From Prauserella marina (lineage in GTDB: Bacteria; Actinomycetota; Actinomycetes; Mycobacteriales; Pseudonocardiaceae), in the NCBI RefSeq assembly GCF_002240355.1, contig NZ_CP016353.1, positions 5,991,001 to 6,055,000 of the forward strand: 64,000 bases of DNA. Direction: 5' to 3'. Positions 11,737 to 19,528 of this stretch are shown here, piece after piece. The first letter of the stretch is position 1; each line of letters begins with the position of its first letter. The position numbers were made by a program, and so were the translations under genes. The notes beneath the pieces were generated by a model that had not been told where the DNA came from, ran no database searches, and saw only the letters and a program-made list of their open reading frames with translations.

Positions 11737-12396
11737 ATGAACGAACGCACCGATCCGCATTGCCTCACCGACGAGGTGCTGTACCCGCTGCTCTACGGAG
11801 CGGGCTGGCGCAGACTCGTCGTCCTCGGCGACAGCGTCGCCGAGGGTGCTGGCGACCTTGACGACCCACCCGGCTATCCGAGGCAACCGTGGGCCGACCG
11901 GCTGGCGGCGGTCCTCACCGCGCACAACCCCGCGCTCGCCTACCTCAACCTCGGCAAGTACGGAGCGTTCGCCGACGAGGTCAAGCACCTGCAACTGAGC
12001 GCGGCGCTCGCGTTCGAGCCCGGTCTCACGGTCGTGGCCTGCGGCGGCAACGACATGCTGCACCGCACTTTCGACCCCGGCGCGGTGGAAGCGGTACTCG
12101 ACAGCATCGTCGGGGCGTTGCGCGGCGACGTGGTCACCATGGGGCTCTTCGACATCTCCCGCTCACCCGCGCTCTCTCCGGAGCGGGCTGCCGCGCTGCG
12201 GCCGAGGCTGGCCGCGCTCGCGTCGCTGACCCGGTCCGTCGCCGACCGGAACGGCGCGTGGCACGTCGACCTCGCGAACCATCCCGCCTCGGCGGACGCC
12301 TCGATTTACAGCTCGGACGGCATCCACGTCAACGCGAGGGGGCACGCCATCGCGGCGACCGAGACGCTTCGGCTACTCGGCGGCATTCTCGGCTGA
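11737..12396 (+). CDS. SGNH/GDSL-type hydrolase (lipase/esterase)
   Basis: A 219-aa protein of the SGNH hydrolase superfamily. Block [11 protein letters not shown] carries the nucleophile Ser33, block III is GGND, and block [15 protein letters not shown] carries the Asp and His of the catalytic set. No signal peptide, so probably cytoplasmic; substrate not predictable (esters of lipids or sugars). Start ATG 11737 is preceded by GAGGAG at 11726-11731. Its 3' end overlaps that of the convergent cysQ by 24 bases. Confidence 0.85.
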
Positions 12397-13122
12397 GATG
12401 GCAGCCAGCAGCCGTTCCGCCAGCTCCGGCCTACAGATCACCAGGTCGGGAAGGTAGGGGTTGCTTTCGTTGTATCGCAAGGGTGATCCGTCGATCCGGC
12501 TCGCGTGCAGCCCCGCCGCGAGCGCGACGCCGACCGGGGCCGCCGAATCCCACTCCCACTGCCCTCCCGCGTGGAGGTAGGCGTCGACATCGCCCCGCAG
12601 CACCGCCATGGCCTTCGCCCCTGCGGAGCCGAGCGGGACGACTTCCGCGCCGAGGGCGGAGGCGACCCCTGCCGCGAAGGACGGCGGCCTGCTCTGGCTC
12701 ACGACGATGCGCACACCTTCGGTGACCCGGTCGGCGAGCACCGCGGTGTCACTGGAATACACGACGTCGAGTGCGGGCAGGGACACCGCCGCAGCCGTGA
12801 TGCCCTTGCCCGCTTCCCACAGCGCGACGTGCACGGCCCAGTCGACGCGGTCGCGCGTGCTGAACTCGCAGGTGCCGTCGAGCGGGTCGACGATCCACAC
12901 GCGTTCGGCTTCGAGCCTTCTCGGGTCGTCGGCCGACTCCTCGGACAGCACCGCGTCGTCCGGTCGCGATTCGGCGAGCCGGGTCGTCAGCAACGTGTTG
13001 GATTCGGTGTCGCCGAGCCTGCCGAGGGCCGTGCTGTCGTCGCAGCCTCCCGCCCTGACCGAGAGAAGGAGCCTGCCCGCCTCTTCAGCCAGCCTTGCCG
13101 CGATGCGTACGTCAGTGGTCAC
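12373..13122 (-). CDS. cysQ: 3'(2'),5'-bisphosphate nucleotidase CysQ (inositol monophosphatase family)
   Basis: A 249-aa protein with the metal-binding motif DPLDGT at residues 79-84, the upstream acidic LSEES (59-63), and the C-terminal [16 protein letters not shown] signature of IMPase/CysQ enzymes. CysQ hydrolyses PAP (and PAPS) to AMP (APS), clearing a product that inhibits sulfotransferases. Its ATG overlaps the end of cysNC by four bases, making it the third gene of a cysD-cysNC-cysQ operon, which supports the PAP phosphatase role over inositol phosphatase. Confidence 0.88.
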
Positions 13123-14939
13123 GATTCCAGGAAACCAAGAATGGCCTCAGCCATGGCCGCTGGGTCACCATCGCCGGGCCGGAACACCAGTTCGGGCGCG
13201 GAAGGCACCTGATAGGGGTCGTCGATTCCGGTGAAGCCGGTGAGCGAGCCCGCCCTCGCCTTCGCGTAGAGGCCCTTCGGGTCGCGTTCCTCGCACACGT
13301 CGATGGGGGTGTCGACGAACACCTCGACGAAGGGCAGCCCGGCCGCGTCGTGGACGGCTCGGACCCGGTCCCTGTCGGCGCCGTAGGGACTGATCAACGA
13401 GGCGATGGCGACGACGCCCGCGTCGGCGAAGAGACGGGCGACCTCTCCGACCCTGCGCACGTTCTCGCTCCGGTCGGCGGCGGTGAACCCGAGATCGGCG
13501 TTGAGCCCGTGCCGCAGATTGTCGCCGTCGAGCAGGTAGGCGGCCCTGCCCGTCGCGATGAGCTTGCGTTCAAGTTCGACGCCGACCGCCGACTTACCGG
13601 AGCCGGAAAGGCCCGTGAGCCACACCGTCGCACCCTCGGCTTGTCGCTGCTGCCTGGTGACCGCGCTTCGCTGCCAGGCGAGCTGGACCTCGTCGGCGCG
13701 CGGGCCGGTGATCATGCCGGCGGCGACGGTGTCGTTGGTCGCCTCGTCGACGAGGATGAAACTGCCCGTCGTCCTGTTGCGCCGGTACGGATCGAAGAGC
13801 AACGGTTGCCTGCTGGTCAGCCGGATCCTGCCGATCTCGTTGAGCGCGAGGGCATCCGCGTGCTCGTCGCGATGCAGGGTGTTGACGTCGAGCCGGTAGT
13901 CGAATTCGCGGACGGTCGCCTTGACGCTTCTCGTGGTGTGCCGCAGCACGAAGGTGGAGCCGACGGCGAGCTTGTCCCGCTCCGCGAACCAGCACACCAT
14001 GGCGTCGATGTCGGAGCCGACGTGCGGCCGGTTTCCCTTCCTGCACAGCAAATCGCCTCTGCCGACGTCGAGTTCGCCCGCGAGCTGAACGGTCACCGCC
14101 TGCGGTGGAAACGCTTCCGCGAGCGGCACCCCACCCGGCCCCCAGATCGCACTCACCGTGCTCTGGTGGCCGGAGGGAAGCACGAGCACCTCGTCGCCGG
14201 GCTTGAAGACTCCGCCGGCGACCGTGCCGGAATACCCCCGGAACTCCTGACTGCGGATGACGTACTGCACGGGAAGGCGTGCGTCGACGAGGTTGCGGTC
14301 CGAGGCGACGTGCACCTGTTCGAGGTGGTGCAGCAACGATGTTCCCTCATACCACGGCATGCTGGCGCTTCGGTGCACGATGTTGTCGCCGAGCAGCGCC
14401 GAGACCGGAACGAACGTCAGGTCGTGCACGTCGAGCTTCATCGAGAACCGGCGGAAGTCCGCGCAGATCTCGTCGAACCGGTCGCGGGACCAGTCGACCA
14501 GATCCATTTTGTTGACGCACAGCACGACGTGCGGGATACCGAGCAGGCTCGCGAGAAACGCGTGTCTGCGCGACTGTTCGAGCACGCCCTTGCGCGCGTC
14601 GACGAGCACAAGCGCGACGTCGGCCGTCGACGCACCGGTGACCATGTTCCTCGTGTACTGAATGTGGCCGGGAGTGTCGGCGATGATGAACTTCCTTCGC
14701 GGCGTCGCGAAGTAGCGGTGGGCGACATCGATGGTGATGCCCTGCTCCCTCTCGGCCCTGAGACCGTCGGTGAGCAGGGCGAGGTTCGGATAGTCCTCGC
14801 CACGTCGCCTGCTCGCCAACTCGACGGCGGCGAGTTGGTCGACGAACAGCGTTTTGGAATCGTGCAGGAGCCTGCCGATGAGCGTCGACTTGCCGTCGTC
14901 GACACTGCCTGCCGTCGCGAGCCTGAGCAACTGGGACAT
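13119..14939 (-). CDS. cysNC: Bifunctional sulfate adenylyltransferase subunit 1 / adenylylsulfate kinase CysNC
   Basis: A 606-aa fusion. The N-terminal CysN GTPase carries GSVDDGKST (P-loop), DTPGH and NKMD, followed by EF-Tu-like beta domains to about residue 430. The C-terminal CysC APS kinase (about 437-606) has its own P-loop GLSGSGKS and [17 protein letters not shown]. With CysD it makes APS from sulfate and ATP, then phosphorylates APS to PAPS. The ATG at 14939 shares one base with the cysD stop (TGATG), so translation is probably coupled. Both P-loops are intact. Confidence 0.95.
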
Positions 14940-15850
14940 CAGAAGTAGCCCTCGATCTTGCGGTCTTCCATACCTGCCTCTGAGATCCGGTCGTCGGCTC
15001 TCGTCGCTCCTCTTTCGGTCACTCTCGTCGCGGCGATCTCGGCGACCACGTGCGCCGCGTCGGCCGCGACGGACTCGACGCAACCGGTGCAGGTCGCGTC
15101 GCCGACCGTGCGGAATCGCACAGTCGCCTCGTAACCGTGCTCGTCAGGCGACGGGGAAAGGTGTTCGGTAACGGCGAGCATCATGCCGTCCCGCTGGAAG
15201 ACCTCGCGCCGGTGCGCGTAGTAGAGCGAGGGCAGCGCGATGTCCTCCTCGGCCACGTAGGTCCAGACGTCCAGCTCGGTCCAGTTGGAAAGCGGGAAAA
15301 CCCTGATGTGCTCGCCTTTTCTGTACCGTCCATTGTAGAGATTCCAGAGTTCGGGCCGCTGCGCCCTTGGATTCCACTGGCCGAACTCGTCGCGGAAACT
15401 GAACACTCGCTCCTTCGCTCGTGCCTTCTCCTCGTCTCTCCTCGCCCCGCCGAAGACGGCGTCGTAGCCATTTTCGCGAATGGTCCGCAGCAGGGTCGCC
15501 GTCTGGAGCCTGTTCCTGCTCGCATTCCTCCCTCGCTCCTCGACGACGGCGCCGCTGTCGATGTCCTCCTGCACGCTGCCGACGACGAGCCGCAGGCCCA
15601 GGTCCCGCACGACCCGATCGCGAAACTCGACGACCTCACGAAAGTTGTGCCCCGTGTCGATGTGCAGCACGGGAAACGGCAGTGGAGCGGGCCAGAACGC
15701 GCGGGCGGCGAGGTGCAACATGACGACCGAATCCTTGCCGCCGGAAAACAGCAGCACCGGATTTTCGAAGGTCGCCGCAACCTCCCGGAAGATATGCACG
15801 GCCTCGGCTTCGAGCGCGCGCAACTGCGTCAGTTCGTAGGTCGTCCGCAC
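14939..15850 (-). CDS. cysD: Sulfate adenylyltransferase subunit 2 CysD
   Basis: A 303-aa PP-loop ATP pyrophosphatase-type protein with LLFSGGKDSVVMLHLA near residue 36 and conserved RRDEEKARAKERVFSFRD and LSNWTELDVW. It adenylylates sulfate as a heterodimer with CysN. I place the start at GTG 15850, with GAAAGG eight bases upstream; GTG 15859 is possible but overlaps that site. First gene of the cysD-cysNC-cysQ operon. A KstR-like box (15882-15895) lies 32 bases upstream, shared with the divergent operon. Confidence 0.93.
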   Translation of the reverse strand: MRTTYELTQLRALEAEAVHIFREVAATFENPVLLFSGGKDSVVMLHLAARAFWPAPLPFPVLHIDTGHNFREVVEFRDRVVRDLGLRLVVGSVQEDIDSGAVVEERGRNASRNRLQTATLLRTIRENGYDAVFGGARRDEEKARAKERVFSFRDEFGQWNPRAQRPELWNLYNGRYRKGEHIRVFPLSNWTELDVWTYVAEEDIALPSLYYAHRREVFQRDGMMLAVTEHLSPSPDEHGYEATVRFRTVGDATCTGCVESVAADAAHVVAEIAATRVTERGATRADDRISEAGMEDRKIEGYF

Positions 15851-15881
15851 GCTGACCACCTTTCGGAATCAGCAACGAAAC

Positions 15882-15895
15882 TAGAACAGGTTCTT
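15882..15895. promoter_or_regulatory. KstR-type operator 1 in the cysD / NTF2-like divergent region
   Basis: TAGAACAGGTTCTT matches the mycobacterial/rhodococcal KstR motif TnnAACnnGTTnnA at all but the last base, and the AGAAC/GTTCT arms are perfect. KstR is the TetR repressor of sterol catabolism, released by a steroid-CoA. The site is 32 bases from cysD and 35 from the NTF2-like gene, so it could act on either. Confidence 0.6.
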
Positions 15896-15929
15896 GCACT
15901 TGGTCAAGGGAGCGCGGAAGCTGGAGAGC

Positions 15930-16418
15930 ATGGACATCGCGACCCTTTCGGCCATCGAGGAGATCAAGCGAGTCAAGTACCGCTACCTGCGCTGCGTCGA
16001 CCTCAAGGACTGGGACGAACTCGCGGGAACGCTCGCCCCTGACGTGACAGCCAACTACGGCACTCCCGCGATGGGCGAGCCGCTGAATTTCACCGGCCGC
16101 ACCGAGTTGATCGACTTTCTCAGCACGACACTCGACGAGAAGATCACCACCGTGCACGCGGCCGGTCAACCCGAGATCGACATCGAAGGCACGAGGGCCC
16201 ATGGCGTCTGGAGTTTCCAGGACAAGGTCATCGCCAAGGAACACAAGGTCGTCATCGAGGGCGCCGCGTTCTACGAGGACAGCTACGTATTCGAAGAGCA
16301 AGGCGGCTGGCTCATCCGGCACACCGGCTACACCCGCACCTACGAGGCGACCTACTCGTTCGAGAGCATTCCCGGATACCGACTCACCTCGACGCCTGGA
16401 CGATTGACCACGACATAG
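15930..16418 (+). CDS. SnoaL/NTF2-like small protein
   Basis: A 162-aa protein starting at ATG 15930. The N-terminal IEEIKRVKYRYLRCVDLKDW and LAPDVTANYG, followed by a curved-sheet pattern ending VFEEQGGWLIRHTGYTRTYE, fit the SnoaL_4/NTF2-like alpha+beta barrel, which includes polyketide cyclases, hydratases and ketosteroid-isomerase-like folds. The fold is common in steroid metabolism, fitting the KstR-type boxes on both sides. Its stop codon TAG is the first three bases of the second box. Catalytic residues cannot be assigned by eye. Confidence 0.75.
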   Translation: MDIATLSAIEEIKRVKYRYLRCVDLKDWDELAGTLAPDVTANYGTPAMGEPLNFTGRTELIDFLSTTLDEKITTVHAAGQPEIDIEGTRAHGVWSFQDKVIAKEHKVVIEGAAFYEDSYVFEEQGGWLIRHTGYTRTYEATYSFESIPGYRLTSTPGRLTTT

Positions 16419-16429
16419 AACGAGTTCTA
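16416..16429 (+). promoter_or_regulatory. KstR-type operator 2 with leaderless promoter
   Basis: TAGAACGAGTTCTA is a perfect palindrome and a full match to the KstR motif TnnAACnnGTTnnA. It overlaps the -10-like hexamer TACTAT (16428-16433), six bases before GTG 16440, so a bound repressor would block the promoter of the DUF1214 gene. This is the strongest operator match in the window. Confidence 0.75.
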
Positions 16430-16439
16430 CTATCATCGG

Positions 16440-17609
16440 GTGCTGACGAAGCCGTTCGCCGATTCGATCGCCGATGCCGAGAAGATCATTACCGACGCAC
16501 CACACGTCAACGGCGAGCCGGATCTCGTCGAGGGCTACGACTACCTCGCTGGCAGCATCAGAGCCGCGTTGCAGCTCGCGTGGGCCTATGAACGCGATTT
16601 CCCCTACTTCGTCCATTCGACGGGCCCCTACACGAAAATGGGCCTCGACAACCCAGATGCTCTCTACTTCCATTCCTATCTTCGCGATGACGCCGAGTAC
16701 GTCGTCATCGGAACCAGAGGCAGCACGAGAGACCTGAGTTTCCAGGTACTCAACGGCGACTACTCACCTGCCGACGTACCCGACAGCCTGACCGCCTTCG
16801 ACGACCGTGCCGTCGAGATCGCTCCCGACGGCACCTTCGAACTGCGCTTCGGCCCCGACCGGGACAAGGCGGGGCCCGGCTACGTCGTACTCGGCGAGGG
16901 GTCCGCGATGCTCGTCATCCGCGAGGTCTACAGCGACTGGGGCAACGAACAGCGAGGAACCCTGCGGATCAGGAGGGCTGATCTCGCAGGCAGCGCGCCT
17001 GCCCCGAAAACGAAGCGAGACCTGGAAAAACGGTATCGAGTCGCGGGCAAGATACTGGTGTCCCGGCTCAAGACGTTCCTCGCGTTTCCCCAGTGGTACT
17101 ACCTCAATCTGCCGGTCAACACGCTGACCGAACCGAGGAGAACACCGGGAGGGCTCGCCACCCAGTATTCCTCCGTCGGGCACTTCGACCTCGCCGACGA
17201 CGAAGCGATGATCGTCACCGTCCCCGCATCGGATGCTCCTTACCAGGGCATTCAACTCGGCAGCATGTGGTACATCTCGCTCGACTACCAGAACCACCAA
17301 ACCAGCCTCACCGCCGACCAGGCGCTCGTTGATCCAGACGGGATGATCCGGTTCGTCATCAGCGAGCGGAACCCTTCACATGCCAACTGGCTGGAACGGC
17401 TCGGGCACAACCGGGGTTACGTGCAGCTTCGCTGGCAGCGGCTGTCCCGCGAACTGGAGCCTTCGGACGGGCCGACGGTGAAGATCGTGCCGGTCTCCGA
17501 ACTTCCCGAAGTCCTTCCCTACTACGAAAAGGCCGCCGTCACCCCGCACGAATGGGAAGCTCGGATCGCGGCGAGACAACGCGCGGTGGCAACCAGGATG
17601 CTCGGATGA
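16440..17609 (+). CDS. DUF1214-domain protein, KstR-regulon-like
   Basis: A 389-aa soluble protein of the DUF1214 type, marked by YVVIGTRGSTRDLSFQVLNG in the N-terminal half and GSMWYISLDYQNHQTSLTAD and DPDGMIRFVISERNPSHANW toward the C-terminus. Molecular function is unknown. It is followed by an SDR gene with a 4-base overlap and then a sulfotransferase. As I recall, this is the gene order of M. tuberculosis Rv3531c-Rv3530c-Rv3529c, which belong to the KstR regulon; this was not checked. GTG start fits a leaderless transcript from TACTAT. Confidence 0.8.
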   Translation: MLTKPFADSIADAEKIITDAPHVNGEPDLVEGYDYLAGSIRAALQLAWAYERDFPYFVHSTGPYTKMGLDNPDALYFHSYLRDDAEYVVIGTRGSTRDLSFQVLNGDYSPADVPDSLTAFDDRAVEIAPDGTFELRFGPDRDKAGPGYVVLGEGSAMLVIREVYSDWGNEQRGTLRIRRADLAGSAPAPKTKRDLEKRYRVAGKILVSRLKTFLAFPQWYYLNLPVNTLTEPRRTPGGLATQYSSVGHFDLADDEAMIVTVPASDAPYQGIQLGSMWYISLDYQNHQTSLTADQALVDPDGMIRFVISERNPSHANWLERLGHNRGYVQLRWQRLSRELEPSDGPTVKIVPVSELPEVLPYYEKAAVTPHEWEARIAARQRAVATRMLG

Positions 17610-18397
17610 ACGCGGCCGGAGAACTGCTCGCCGACAAGGTCGTCGTGGTGTCAGGAGTCGGTCCCGGCCTCGGAAGGTCGATCGCCGTCAGGAGCGCGTT
17701 GGCCGGGGCGAAGATCGTGCTCGCGGCACGAACGAGCGAACGACTCGACGAGGTCGCCAAGGAGATCGACGAGCTGGGAGGGCAAGCTGTCGCGGTGCGC
17801 ACCGATGTCACCGACGACGACTCGGCTTCCGCGCTCGTCGAATCCACGTTGGCTCACTTCGGCAGGGTCGACACGCTTGTCAACAACGCGTTCGCGATCC
17901 CGCCGATCACCGACCTCGCCGACGTCGACATCGACGCGGTGCGCGCGGGTTTCGAGACGAACGTACTCGCCGCTCTGCGGCTCACCAGGCTGTTCACCGA
18001 AGGGCTCTCCGCGAGTTCGGGGTCTGTCGTGATGATCAATTCGGCCGTACTGCGGCATTCGCGGCGCACCTTCGGCCCCTACAAGATGTCGAAAGCGGCC
18101 CTGCTCGCGCTGTCGCAAAGCCTGGCGACCGAACTTGGGCCCCTGGGTGTCAGGGTGAACTCCGTCGCCCCCGGCTACATCTGGGCGGGCTCGTTACGCT
18201 GGTATTTCGGCTACCTCGCCGAGAAGCGCGGGGTGAGCAGGCAGGAGGTCTACGACGAGGTCGCGGCGACGACCGACCTGCGCAAGTTGCCGGATCCCGA
18301 CGAGATCGCCGACGCCGTGGTCTTTCTCGCCTCCCCGCTCGCGCGCGCGATCACCGGCCACTGCCTCGACGTCAACAGCGGCGAATACCACAACTAG
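17606..18397 (+). CDS. Short-chain dehydrogenase/reductase (SDR)
   Basis: A 263-aa classical SDR. The NAD(P)-binding motif is GVGPGLGRS (residues 17-25), NNAF replaces NNAG, and the active site is YKMSK with a preceding Ser in INSAVL. The C-terminal GHCLDVNSGEY is the usual last strand. Probable 3-oxo/3-hydroxy-acyl or steroid oxidoreductase. The ATG overlaps the stop of the DUF1214 gene (ATGA), so the genes are translationally coupled. Start upstream at 17552 is less likely because of that coupling. Confidence 0.88.
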   Translation: MNAAGELLADKVVVVSGVGPGLGRSIAVRSALAGAKIVLAARTSERLDEVAKEIDELGGQAVAVRTDVTDDDSASALVESTLAHFGRVDTLVNNAFAIPPITDLADVDIDAVRAGFETNVLAALRLTRLFTEGLSASSGSVVMINSAVLRHSRRTFGPYKMSKAALLALSQSLATELGPLGVRVNSVAPGYIWAGSLRWYFGYLAEKRGVSRQEVYDEVAATTDLRKLPDPDEIADAVVFLASPLARAITGHCLDVNSGEYHN

Positions 18398-18406
18398 GGG
18401 CGTCAC

Positions 18407-19528
18407 ATGGTTGTAGCGACGATGGATGAGCTGCATGAGGCGGCGACGCGGATCACAGGGCTCGACGACTTCGGCTCCGACGACTACCGCGAAGGGCTCG
18501 CGGTGTTGCTCGACTCCTACGAGCGAGAGGCGAGCCTCACCCCGCACGGCGCAAGGGTCGCCAAGGCATTCCTGCGCGGAGCGCTGGTGGCGAGGTCGCT
18601 GAGCGAGGCGGCGTGGCGGGCTTTTCCCCGCCACACCGACGTCACCATCGAACGACCGATCTTCGTCACCGGTCTCCCCCGTACCGGAACGACGGCCCTG
18701 CACCGGTTGCTCACCGCGGATCCAGCCCACCAGGGCCTTGAGGTGTGGCTCACCGAGTTCCCGCAGCCTCGGCCTCCTCGCGACACCTGGGAAGCCAATC
18801 CGGTCTTCCAGCGCATCCAGGCCGGTTACGAGCAGTACCACGACGAGCACCCCGAATTCATGGGCCTGCACGCGATGTCGGCGGCCCAGGTCGAGGAATG
18901 CTGGCAACTGCTGCGCCAGTCGGCCCTTTCGATTTCCTACGAATGCCTCGCACACATACCTTCCTACTCGGCTTGGCTGTCCACACAGGACTGGAAAGCC
19001 GCGTACGAGCGGCACCGGCGCAACCTCCAGCTCATCGGCCTTCCCGACGCGAGCCGCAGGTGGGTTCTCAAGAATCCCAGCCACCTTTTCGCGCTCGACG
19101 CACTGCTCTCGGTGTACCCCGACGCGCTCGTCGTACAGACGCACCGCGCGCCGAGCACGGCGATCGCCTCGGTGTGCAGTCTCACCGCCCGCGCCACCGA
19201 AGGCTGGTCGGACGTCTTTCGCGGTGAGGTCATCGGCGCCGACCAGCTCGCGCTGTGGTCGCGCGGGCTCGCGACGTTCACCGCCGAACGCGCCAAGCAC
19301 GACCAATCCCGGTTCTACGACGTCGACTACGCCGATTTCGTCGCCGACCCGCTCGGCACGGCCGAGGCGATCTACGACCACTTCGGCATCCCGCTCGGCG
19401 ACGAGGCGCGCTCGGCCATGCGGCGGCTGCACGGGGAGAGCACGAGCGGGAGCGCGGCACCCTCGCACACCTACTCGCTTTCCGACTTCGGGCTCACCGC
19501 CGAACAGGTCGAGGCACACTTCGCCTGA
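18407..19528 (+). CDS. Sulfotransferase family protein
   Basis: A 373-aa protein. The PAPS-binding 5'-phosphosulfate loop is seen in RPIFVTGLPRTGTTALHRLL (about residues 84-103), and the 3'-phosphate-binding region in WVLKNPSHLFALDALLSVYP and HRAPSTAIAS. This is the large bacterial sulfotransferase family with a C-terminal Ser/Asp-rich tail. It lies nine bases after the SDR in the KstR-boxed set. The divergent cysD-cysNC-cysQ operon would supply PAPS and clear PAP. The acceptor is unknown; a sterol- or lipid-derived alcohol is an inference from context. Confidence 0.85.
   Translation: MVVATMDELHEAATRITGLDDFGSDDYREGLAVLLDSYEREASLTPHGARVAKAFLRGALVARSLSEAAWRAFPRHTDVTIERPIFVTGLPRTGTTALHRLLTADPAHQGLEVWLTEFPQPRPPRDTWEANPVFQRIQAGYEQYHDEHPEFMGLHAMSAAQVEECWQLLRQSALSISYECLAHIPSYSAWLSTQDWKAAYERHRRNLQLIGLPDASRRWVLKNPSHLFALDALLSVYPDALVVQTHRAPSTAIASVCSLTARATEGWSDVFRGEVIGADQLALWSRGLATFTAERAKHDQSRFYDVDYADFVADPLGTAEAIYDHFGIPLGDEARSAMRRLHGESTSGSAAPSHTYSLSDFGLTAEQVEAHFA

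Follow-up and report, generated by a model that had tools for sequence, protein, structure and literature searches.

We analysed a 64,000-nucleotide stretch of the Prauserella marina genome (hereafter the window; contig NZ_CP016353.1, positions 5,991,001 to 6,055,000), in which an operon for making 3'-phosphoadenosine 5'-phosphosulfate (PAPS), cysD-cysNC-cysQ, stands head-to-head with a set of genes that ends in a sulfotransferase. Palindromes of the type bound by KstR, the repressor of sterol catabolism, lie within the promoters of both. We read the locus as a sulfo-transfer module under KstR, in which the sulfotransferase would act on a hydroxylated steroid and be fed by a PAPS cycle, and we give this reading a probability of roughly 0.6. 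Its parts do not all carry the same weight: KstR very probably controls both arms and the PAPS set can be assigned to the sulfotransferase with high confidence, and a steroid acceptor is judged slightly better than an even bet. The first-pass annotation had proposed that PAPS supply and sulfo-transfer are switched on by sterol-derived signals. That proposal gains from the widespread pairing of the two gene sets, the conservation of boxes in the promoters of both arms, the presence of KstR and a steroid cluster in the genome, the separation of the PAPS set from sulfate assimilation and the BaiE-like character of the SnoaL protein; its DUF1214 label for one gene is not supported, at 16.4 bits against a Pfam gathering cut-off of 25. 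The elements of the locus are as follows.

12373-13122, minus strand: cysQ-like gene for a phosphatase of 3'-phosphoadenosine 5'-phosphate (PAP), inositol monophosphatase family (PF00459, 98.6 bits)
13119-14948, minus strand: cysNC, a fusion of the ATP sulfurylase large subunit and adenosine 5'-phosphosulfate (APS) kinase (NF004035, 937 bits; APS_kinase, 220 bits)
14939-15859, minus strand: cysD, ATP sulfurylase small subunit (TIGR02039, 452 bits), starting at GTG 15859 or GTG 15850
15878-15907, minus strand: cysD promoter as read from the sequence, -35 TTGACC at 15907-15902, 18 bases, -10 TAGTTT at 15883-15878
15882-15895, no strand: box 1, putative KstR-type operator common to cysD and the SnoaL gene, TAGAACAGGTTCTT, one mismatch, 20.1 bits
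15894-15922, plus strand: possible SnoaL promoter with inferred hexamers, -35 TTGCAC at 15894-15899, 17 bases, -10 GAAGCT at 15917-15922
15930-16418, plus strand: SnoaL_4 protein (PF13577, 93.9 bits)
16404-16433, plus strand: promoter of the operon formed by the 16440-17609 gene, the SDR gene and the sulfotransferase gene, TTGACC-N18-TACTAT, the sole promoter reported here by a generic scan
16416-16429, no strand: box 2, putative KstR-type operator before the 16440-17609 gene, TAGAACGAGTTCTA, exact, 14.9 bits
16440-17609, plus strand: protein that reaches no Pfam cut-off, a relative of PDB 6ANS (profile match, expectation value (E) 4.3e-40)
17606-18397, plus strand: short-chain dehydrogenase/reductase (SDR; NF005909, 387 bits against a cut-off of 258; PDB 3UCX, E 8e-83)
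18407-19528, plus strand: PAPS-type sulfotransferase, Sulfotransfer_3 (PF13469, 201.5 bits)

The divergent layout that had been described is confirmed, with the overlapping cysD, cysNC and cysQ-like genes on one strand to the left of the gap and the SnoaL_4, 16440-17609, SDR and sulfotransferase genes on the other side. The 18407-19528 product fits a PAPS-dependent Sulfotransfer_3 enzyme by its family score and its PAPS-binding loop: the loop TGLPRxGTTA, H246-R247 and S255 are invariant among 20 aligned sequences, that of the window included. Residues 3-373 of the 373 in PDB 2ZQ5 are matched (E 4.6e-165). The title of that entry says 'putative uncharacterized protein' only; we take it to be M. 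tuberculosis Stf1/Rv3529c, and a literature search on 2ZQ5 gave nothing relevant. The cysQ-like product scores 93.8 bits against the TIGR01331 CysQ model, under its equivalog cut-off of 228.8, and the 16440-17609 protein has remote similarity only to DUF1254/DUF1214. A second Sulfotransfer_3 of the genome is 28-29% identical to that of the window, and its surroundings (15 kb) hold neither a PAPS gene nor a box of at least 11 bits. A 63% identical sulfotransferase is found on a 224-kb Tsukamurella plasmid record (NZ_LR134464.1:49011-50114), so the gene can be plasmid-borne.

Both palindromes are present where they had been noted, one with a single mismatch and one exact. Counting matches to the bare consensus was dropped as evidence. 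If one mismatch is tolerated, the 14-base pattern occurs 6 times in the window where 6.1 occurrences are expected, which is chance level; the exact pattern has 1 against 0.12 expected and is present in 10 of 100 shuffles, and genome-wide there are 38 exact sites against 24 for a reversed control. The consensus by itself therefore proves little, and we used a weight matrix and conservation instead. The matrix was built on 43 of the 47 KstR sites that Kendall et al. published in 2007 (PMC1995591, available in part). It gives box 1 and box 2 the scores listed above and the next best site of the window 7.1 bits; among 40 shuffled windows one reached 21.5 bits and the next best 13.6.

We extended the analysis to the gene order in relatives, using 89 loci: 57 sulfotransferase-bearing loci from a scan of GTDB contigs, 20 loci from other families (20 of the 58 sulfotransferase-bearing genomes outside the window's family), 11 further loci from the family and the window itself. 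The 11 (12 fetched, one a repeat) lean towards exceptions, ten having been picked for absence of the usual cysNC. The pairing is widespread in this set. Divergent cysD is present in 58 of the 89 loci, comprising 42 of 57 scan loci, 14 of 20 from other families, 1 of the 11 and the window; seven loci have cysQ alone, one has an APS kinase alone, 20 have none of these genes and three are cut off. In L123, cysD lies about 5 kb from the 16440-17609-type gene. The locus with an APS kinase alone, L129, has a minimal PAPS arm: a stand-alone enzyme (L129:9294-9893; TIGR00455, 226 bits) replaces cysD-cysNC, divergent from the SnoaL gene and with two boxes between them.

In each of the 58 loci with divergent cysD, the gap contains one or more boxes. 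Boxes were counted from 13 bits upwards, in the region from the cys gene to the 16440-17609-type gene or, where no cys gene was present, in the 1.5 kb before the latter. By this count there are 138 boxes in 100,246 bases before the operons vs 35 in 1,610,473 bases elsewhere, and second-order shuffles yielded 1 box in 797,825 bases. Judged by this conservation in relatives, the boxes are far more than a product of chance.

A merely accidental neighbourhood was also considered and rejected: flanking genes occur in at most 21 of the 89 loci, mostly within Amycolatopsis or the close relatives of the window. The most widespread gene that does not belong to the module is an IclR-type gene inside it, directly before the 16440-17609-type gene in at least 22 of the 89 loci (for example L106:7957-8868; HTH_IclR, 36 bits, one member tested). 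It may add a second regulatory input, and it is absent between the two operons of the window.

Box 1 lies within the spacer of the cysD promoter and overlaps its -10 element. Box 1 had been noted as shared with cysD. The -35/-10 pair facing cysD occurs around the box in 52 of the 58 loci with divergent cysD, at a spacing to the box constant within one base, vs 1 of 16 boxed loci without cysD (Fisher, P = 4e-10, with no correction for relatedness). In 46 of those 58 loci and in 15 of the 16, box 1 reads CTTG in its right half, where it breaks the palindrome. The TTG of this CTTG can serve as the -35 element of a rightward SnoaL promoter, which would explain why it is fixed; transcription is then predicted to start near ATG 15930. 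Since the cysD pair and the SnoaL -35 element both fall at box 1, one operator would cover two divergent promoters. The generic promoter scan of the region reported neither the cysD pair nor the SnoaL hexamers.

Box 2 likewise lies within a promoter spacer, overlapping both the SnoaL stop codon and the -10 element. The promoter is so near GTG 16440 that the transcript probably starts close to this codon and is leaderless. A box occurs within 200 bases of the 16440-17609-type gene in 64 of 84 loci scored; 54 of these 64 have the -35 TTGAC and 62 the TA of the -10.

We next consider co-occurrence across 200 genomes of the window's family, for which matches were accepted to E 1e-100 for the sulfotransferase and to E 1e-40 for KstR, and an APS kinase was counted as strong below E 1e-30. 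The sulfotransferase is present in 63 genomes. KstR is found in 104 of the 200 and in 62 of these 63, the exception (G030) being 86% complete, and a strong APS kinase is found in 140 of the 200 and again in 62 of the 63, the exception being G103. A cysNC at least 70% identical to that of the window over its full length occurs in 46 genomes, namely 45 of the 63 with the sulfotransferase and 1 of the 137 others; that one, G135, has neither a sulfotransferase nor a KstR match. In 43 genomes this cysNC lies within 10 kb of the sulfotransferase. It is placed elsewhere in G043 and G156; an additional copy without linkage to the sulfotransferase is present in G093, G146 and G113.

A second, diverged module, met when genomes without this cysNC were examined for a source of PAPS, shows the same kind of association. 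In it, a different CysNC (46-53% identical) adjoins relatives of the 16440-17609 protein (29-31%), the sulfotransferase (33-35%) and the SDR (40-43%), and a box precedes the first gene of the sulfotransferase operon.

L148-L159 and L169-L171, for example L149:5159-11500: loci of the second module

We examined all 14 KstR-positive genomes, among the matches listed, that lack the first sulfotransferase and have a full-length CysNC of this kind. All 14 have the second module, vs 0 of 5 KstR-negative genomes with such a CysNC (Fisher, P = 9e-5, relatedness not corrected). G181 is a fifteenth genome with the module, its best cysNC match being a piece that stops at residue 394. In nine of the 14, the cys operon lies upstream of the box and has the direction of the sulfotransferase operon; in five (L148, L150, L151, L153 and L171) it converges on that operon. 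At the corresponding place G046 and G078, both of which have the first sulfotransferase, have only the 16440-17609-type protein and the SDR. CysNC copies at about 47% identity in G146 and G175 are accompanied by neither such a module nor a box, and the same is true in G006 and G037.

The two CysNC groups sit in different parts of the CysN/CysNC tree. This places PAPS genes of two lineages beside such modules and suggests that the joining took place twice. In this midpoint-rooted tree, the bootstrap of which is not fully settled, the CysNC of the first module forms a clade (100/99; 18 rows from the module and 4 stray) next to the two assimilatory CysN (99/98). In the sulfotransferase tree, a modestly supported branch (90/87) separates the second type from the rest.

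CysD and CysN are enzymes of assimilation, and sterol catabolism uses much coenzyme A (CoA). The cys operon could therefore be an ordinary assimilation operon, or supply sulfur for CoA and iron-sulfur proteins during growth on sterols, and adjoin the sulfotransferase by chance; the box-free cys operon of the second module would agree with this. However, the genome has a complete, separate assimilation cluster. Three PF01507 matches were found, the CysD of the window and a pair at C1:1.97 Mb, where the genes read sir-cysH-cysD-cysN, so the cys set of the window is not the sole route to reduced sulfur. The CysN of that cluster lacks an APS kinase domain, its match to the window protein stopping at residue 413 with no PF01583 match there, and its CysH carries the CC...CxxC pattern that marks APS reductases. 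Because of these two features, assimilation in this genome should need no PAPS. The CysNC of the window is the only strong APS kinase among the genome's two matches. The other (L101:1423-1965, 84 bits) stands beside genes for nucleotidyltransferase, Peptidase_C26/GATase and PEP-utiliser proteins. Where only cysQ or an APS kinase is left, the locus retains PAPS-specific steps only, cysNC follows the sulfotransferase across genomes as counted above, and the second cysNC lineage adjoins a second such module. With a separate assimilation cluster in place and cysNC tracking the sulfotransferase, we reject assimilation as the main function of the window's cysD-cysNC and regard this explanation of the pairing as very unlikely.

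The genome also has the regulator that would act on the boxes. A KstR gene (L033:6103-6765) scores 337 bits against NF033703 (cut-off 280), in a steroid region with KstR, KstD, HsaA, HsaC and HsaD that contains 6 of the 38 exact sites within its 33 kb, and a 15.4-bit box lies upstream of kstR itself. The window module is about 3.6 Mb along the contig from this main steroid cluster. Other strong KstR-type boxes in the genome are at L042:6444-6461 (30 bits) and L036:6205-6497 (22 bits). Two MlaE/YrbE-type permease genes (L036:227-1869) lie some 4-5 kb from the second of these, a sign that an mce-type importer may be encoded there.

Similar palindromes are bound by other TetR proteins, and an IclR-type gene accompanies the module in the loci described above. 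A different TetR-type regulator, or this IclR-type one, might thus occupy the boxes in place of KstR. We hold this to be highly improbable, since the boxes fit published KstR sites, KstR is present in all but one of the sulfotransferase-bearing genomes, the same type of box fills the steroid cluster, and no such IclR gene separates the two operons of the window.

As to the acceptor, the SnoaL_4 protein resembles the steroid dehydratase BaiE in sequence. Its sole PDB matches at E 0.01 are three sequences of this bile-acid 7-alpha-dehydratase (4LEH, 4L8O and 4L8P; E 1.8e-22 to 1.8e-20), with 4LEH at E 1.8e-22. Residues Y19, D24, H76, D98 and R136 are invariant among 24 aligned sequences, that of the window included, and align with positions 49, 54, 102, 125 and 165 of the 4LEH chain; subtraction of an assumed 19-residue tag gives 30, 35, 83, 106 and 146. 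We take the active-site residues of BaiE to be Y30, D35, H83, D106 and R146, a list for which a literature search found no paper. Such a partner suggests a hydroxylated steroid as acceptor.

Trehalose lipids and menaquinone are substrates of mycobacterial sulfotransferases, and KstR might control a module whose acceptor is not a steroid and is instead an envelope lipid, a quinone or a signalling molecule made during growth on sterols. The module does persist without a BaiE-like gene in 12 of 58 loci with divergent cysD and 9 of 28 without it. We nevertheless consider a non-steroid acceptor rather unlikely, because the SnoaL protein with its catalytic residues, the SDR and the near-complete co-occurrence with KstR point to a steroid.

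If the acceptor is a steroid, the sulfonate need not be a tag. It could be a leaving group: in a PAPS cycle switched on through KstR, a steroid hydroxyl standing in the way of degradation would be sulfonated by the sulfotransferase and made ready for elimination by the SDR and the BaiE-like enzyme, the released sulfate would be reloaded by CysD-CysNC and PAP would be destroyed by CysQ. We regard this as improbable. If true, it would amount to a sulfo-activated dehydroxylation step within sterol catabolism, kept by many actinobacteria and served by two PAPS gene lineages.

From the gene content, the boxes in core promoters, their conservation, the separate assimilation cluster and the co-occurrence with KstR, we infer the following scheme for the KstR-controlled module. 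Without sterol, KstR on box 1 would block the cysD and SnoaL promoters and KstR on box 2 the downstream operon. An effector such as 3-oxo-cholestenoyl-CoA would release both sides; as effectors of KstR, the available part of the published work names 3-oxo-cholestenoic acid along with the CoA esters of acids of this kind (PMC9782250). CysD and CysNC would then convert sulfate and ATP to PAPS. The SDR and the BaiE-like SnoaL protein would prepare a hydroxylated acceptor derived from a steroid, to which the sulfotransferase would pass the sulfonate, and CysQ would clear the inhibitory by-product PAP. The product may be a soluble or less toxic conjugate, or a hydroxyl activated for removal.

Several observations weigh against this scheme. 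Box 2 scores under all 43 training sites (all at least 18.4 bits) and would therefore be doubtful alone; 20 of the 84 loci scored have no box within 200 bases of the 16440-17609-type gene. PAPS genes are missing alongside in 20 of the 89 loci, including all ten of Microtetraspora/Actinomadura type and the four sampled from genus g53 (L112, L115, L121 and L122), each of which has a boxed three-gene operon without cys genes. In 12 of the 28 loci without cysD, the stretch searched near SnoaL or cys has no box; nine of these 12 lack a SnoaL match, and in L129 the boxes lie just outside the stretch searched. Of the 58 loci with divergent cysD, only 12 also have cysQ with it. Nor is the BaiE-like partner universal: 12 of the 58 lack a SnoaL match, each of them outside the window's family. 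Eighteen of the 63 sulfotransferase-bearing genomes lack a cysNC of at least 70% identity, and in P. muralis (L043/L134) cysD-cysNC lies elsewhere with no box in front; of the six unlinked cysNC places four were examined (L133-L136), and none has a box of at least 11 bits before cysD. No box of at least 12 bits precedes the cys operon of the second module. Finally, the P values are all inflated by relatedness among the genomes.

That its pairing with a dedicated PAPS supply is conserved would mark the sulfotransferase as an active consumer of PAPS linked to the use of sterols. An unassigned corner of the actinobacterial cholesterol regulon thereby becomes testable in soil species, with the prediction that sterol-degrading actinobacteria contain sulfated (or sulfo-activated) steroids. 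A literature search, mostly without subscription journals, found no paper that joins KstR to a sulfotransferase, cysD or sulfate adenylyltransferase, and none that describes such steroids in these bacteria.

One of the closest known systems is the KstR regulon of M. tuberculosis and M. smegmatis, with its operon Rv3531c-Rv3530c-Rv3529c. In the available parts of the published reports, KstR binds upstream of Rv3531c, the head of this counterpart operon, in an electrophoretic mobility shift assay, and the genes are described as encoding a hypothetical protein (Rv3531c), a possible oxidoreductase (Rv3530c) and a conserved protein (Rv3529c) (PMC1995591, PMC6429209). The box before the sulfotransferase operon is therefore not new. 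The likeness extends to the placement of the box over the -10, which the site before kstR partly overlaps according to the accessible text of Kendall et al. (PMC1995591). Relative to the M. tuberculosis operon, the window adds a second putative operator, common to the PAPS-synthesis operon, and a BaiE-like first gene; the co-supply of PAPS, the shared operator and the link to BaiE appear to be new.

In Bacteroides thetaiotaomicron, the cluster BT_0411-BT_0416 has a sulfotransferase beside PAPS genes and makes cholesterol sulfate, and cholesterol induces BT_0412 and BT_0416, as stated in the available part of that report (PMC9417993). In the window, too, the sulfotransferase adjoins PAPS-synthesis genes. 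The likeness is one of gene content. The Bacteroides cluster belongs to gut Bacteroidota, and the same part of the report names no KstR, SDR or BaiE-like partner. BaiE (4LEH, 4L8O and 4L8P) and the SnoaL protein are of one sequence family with the five presumed active-site residues kept; that of the window is actinobacterial, known from sequence and part of a KstR-boxed module. Finally, CysD and CysNC are the enzymes of assimilatory sulfate activation, but the set in the window stands apart from the cysH-cysD-cysN of the cell and is paired with a sulfotransferase.

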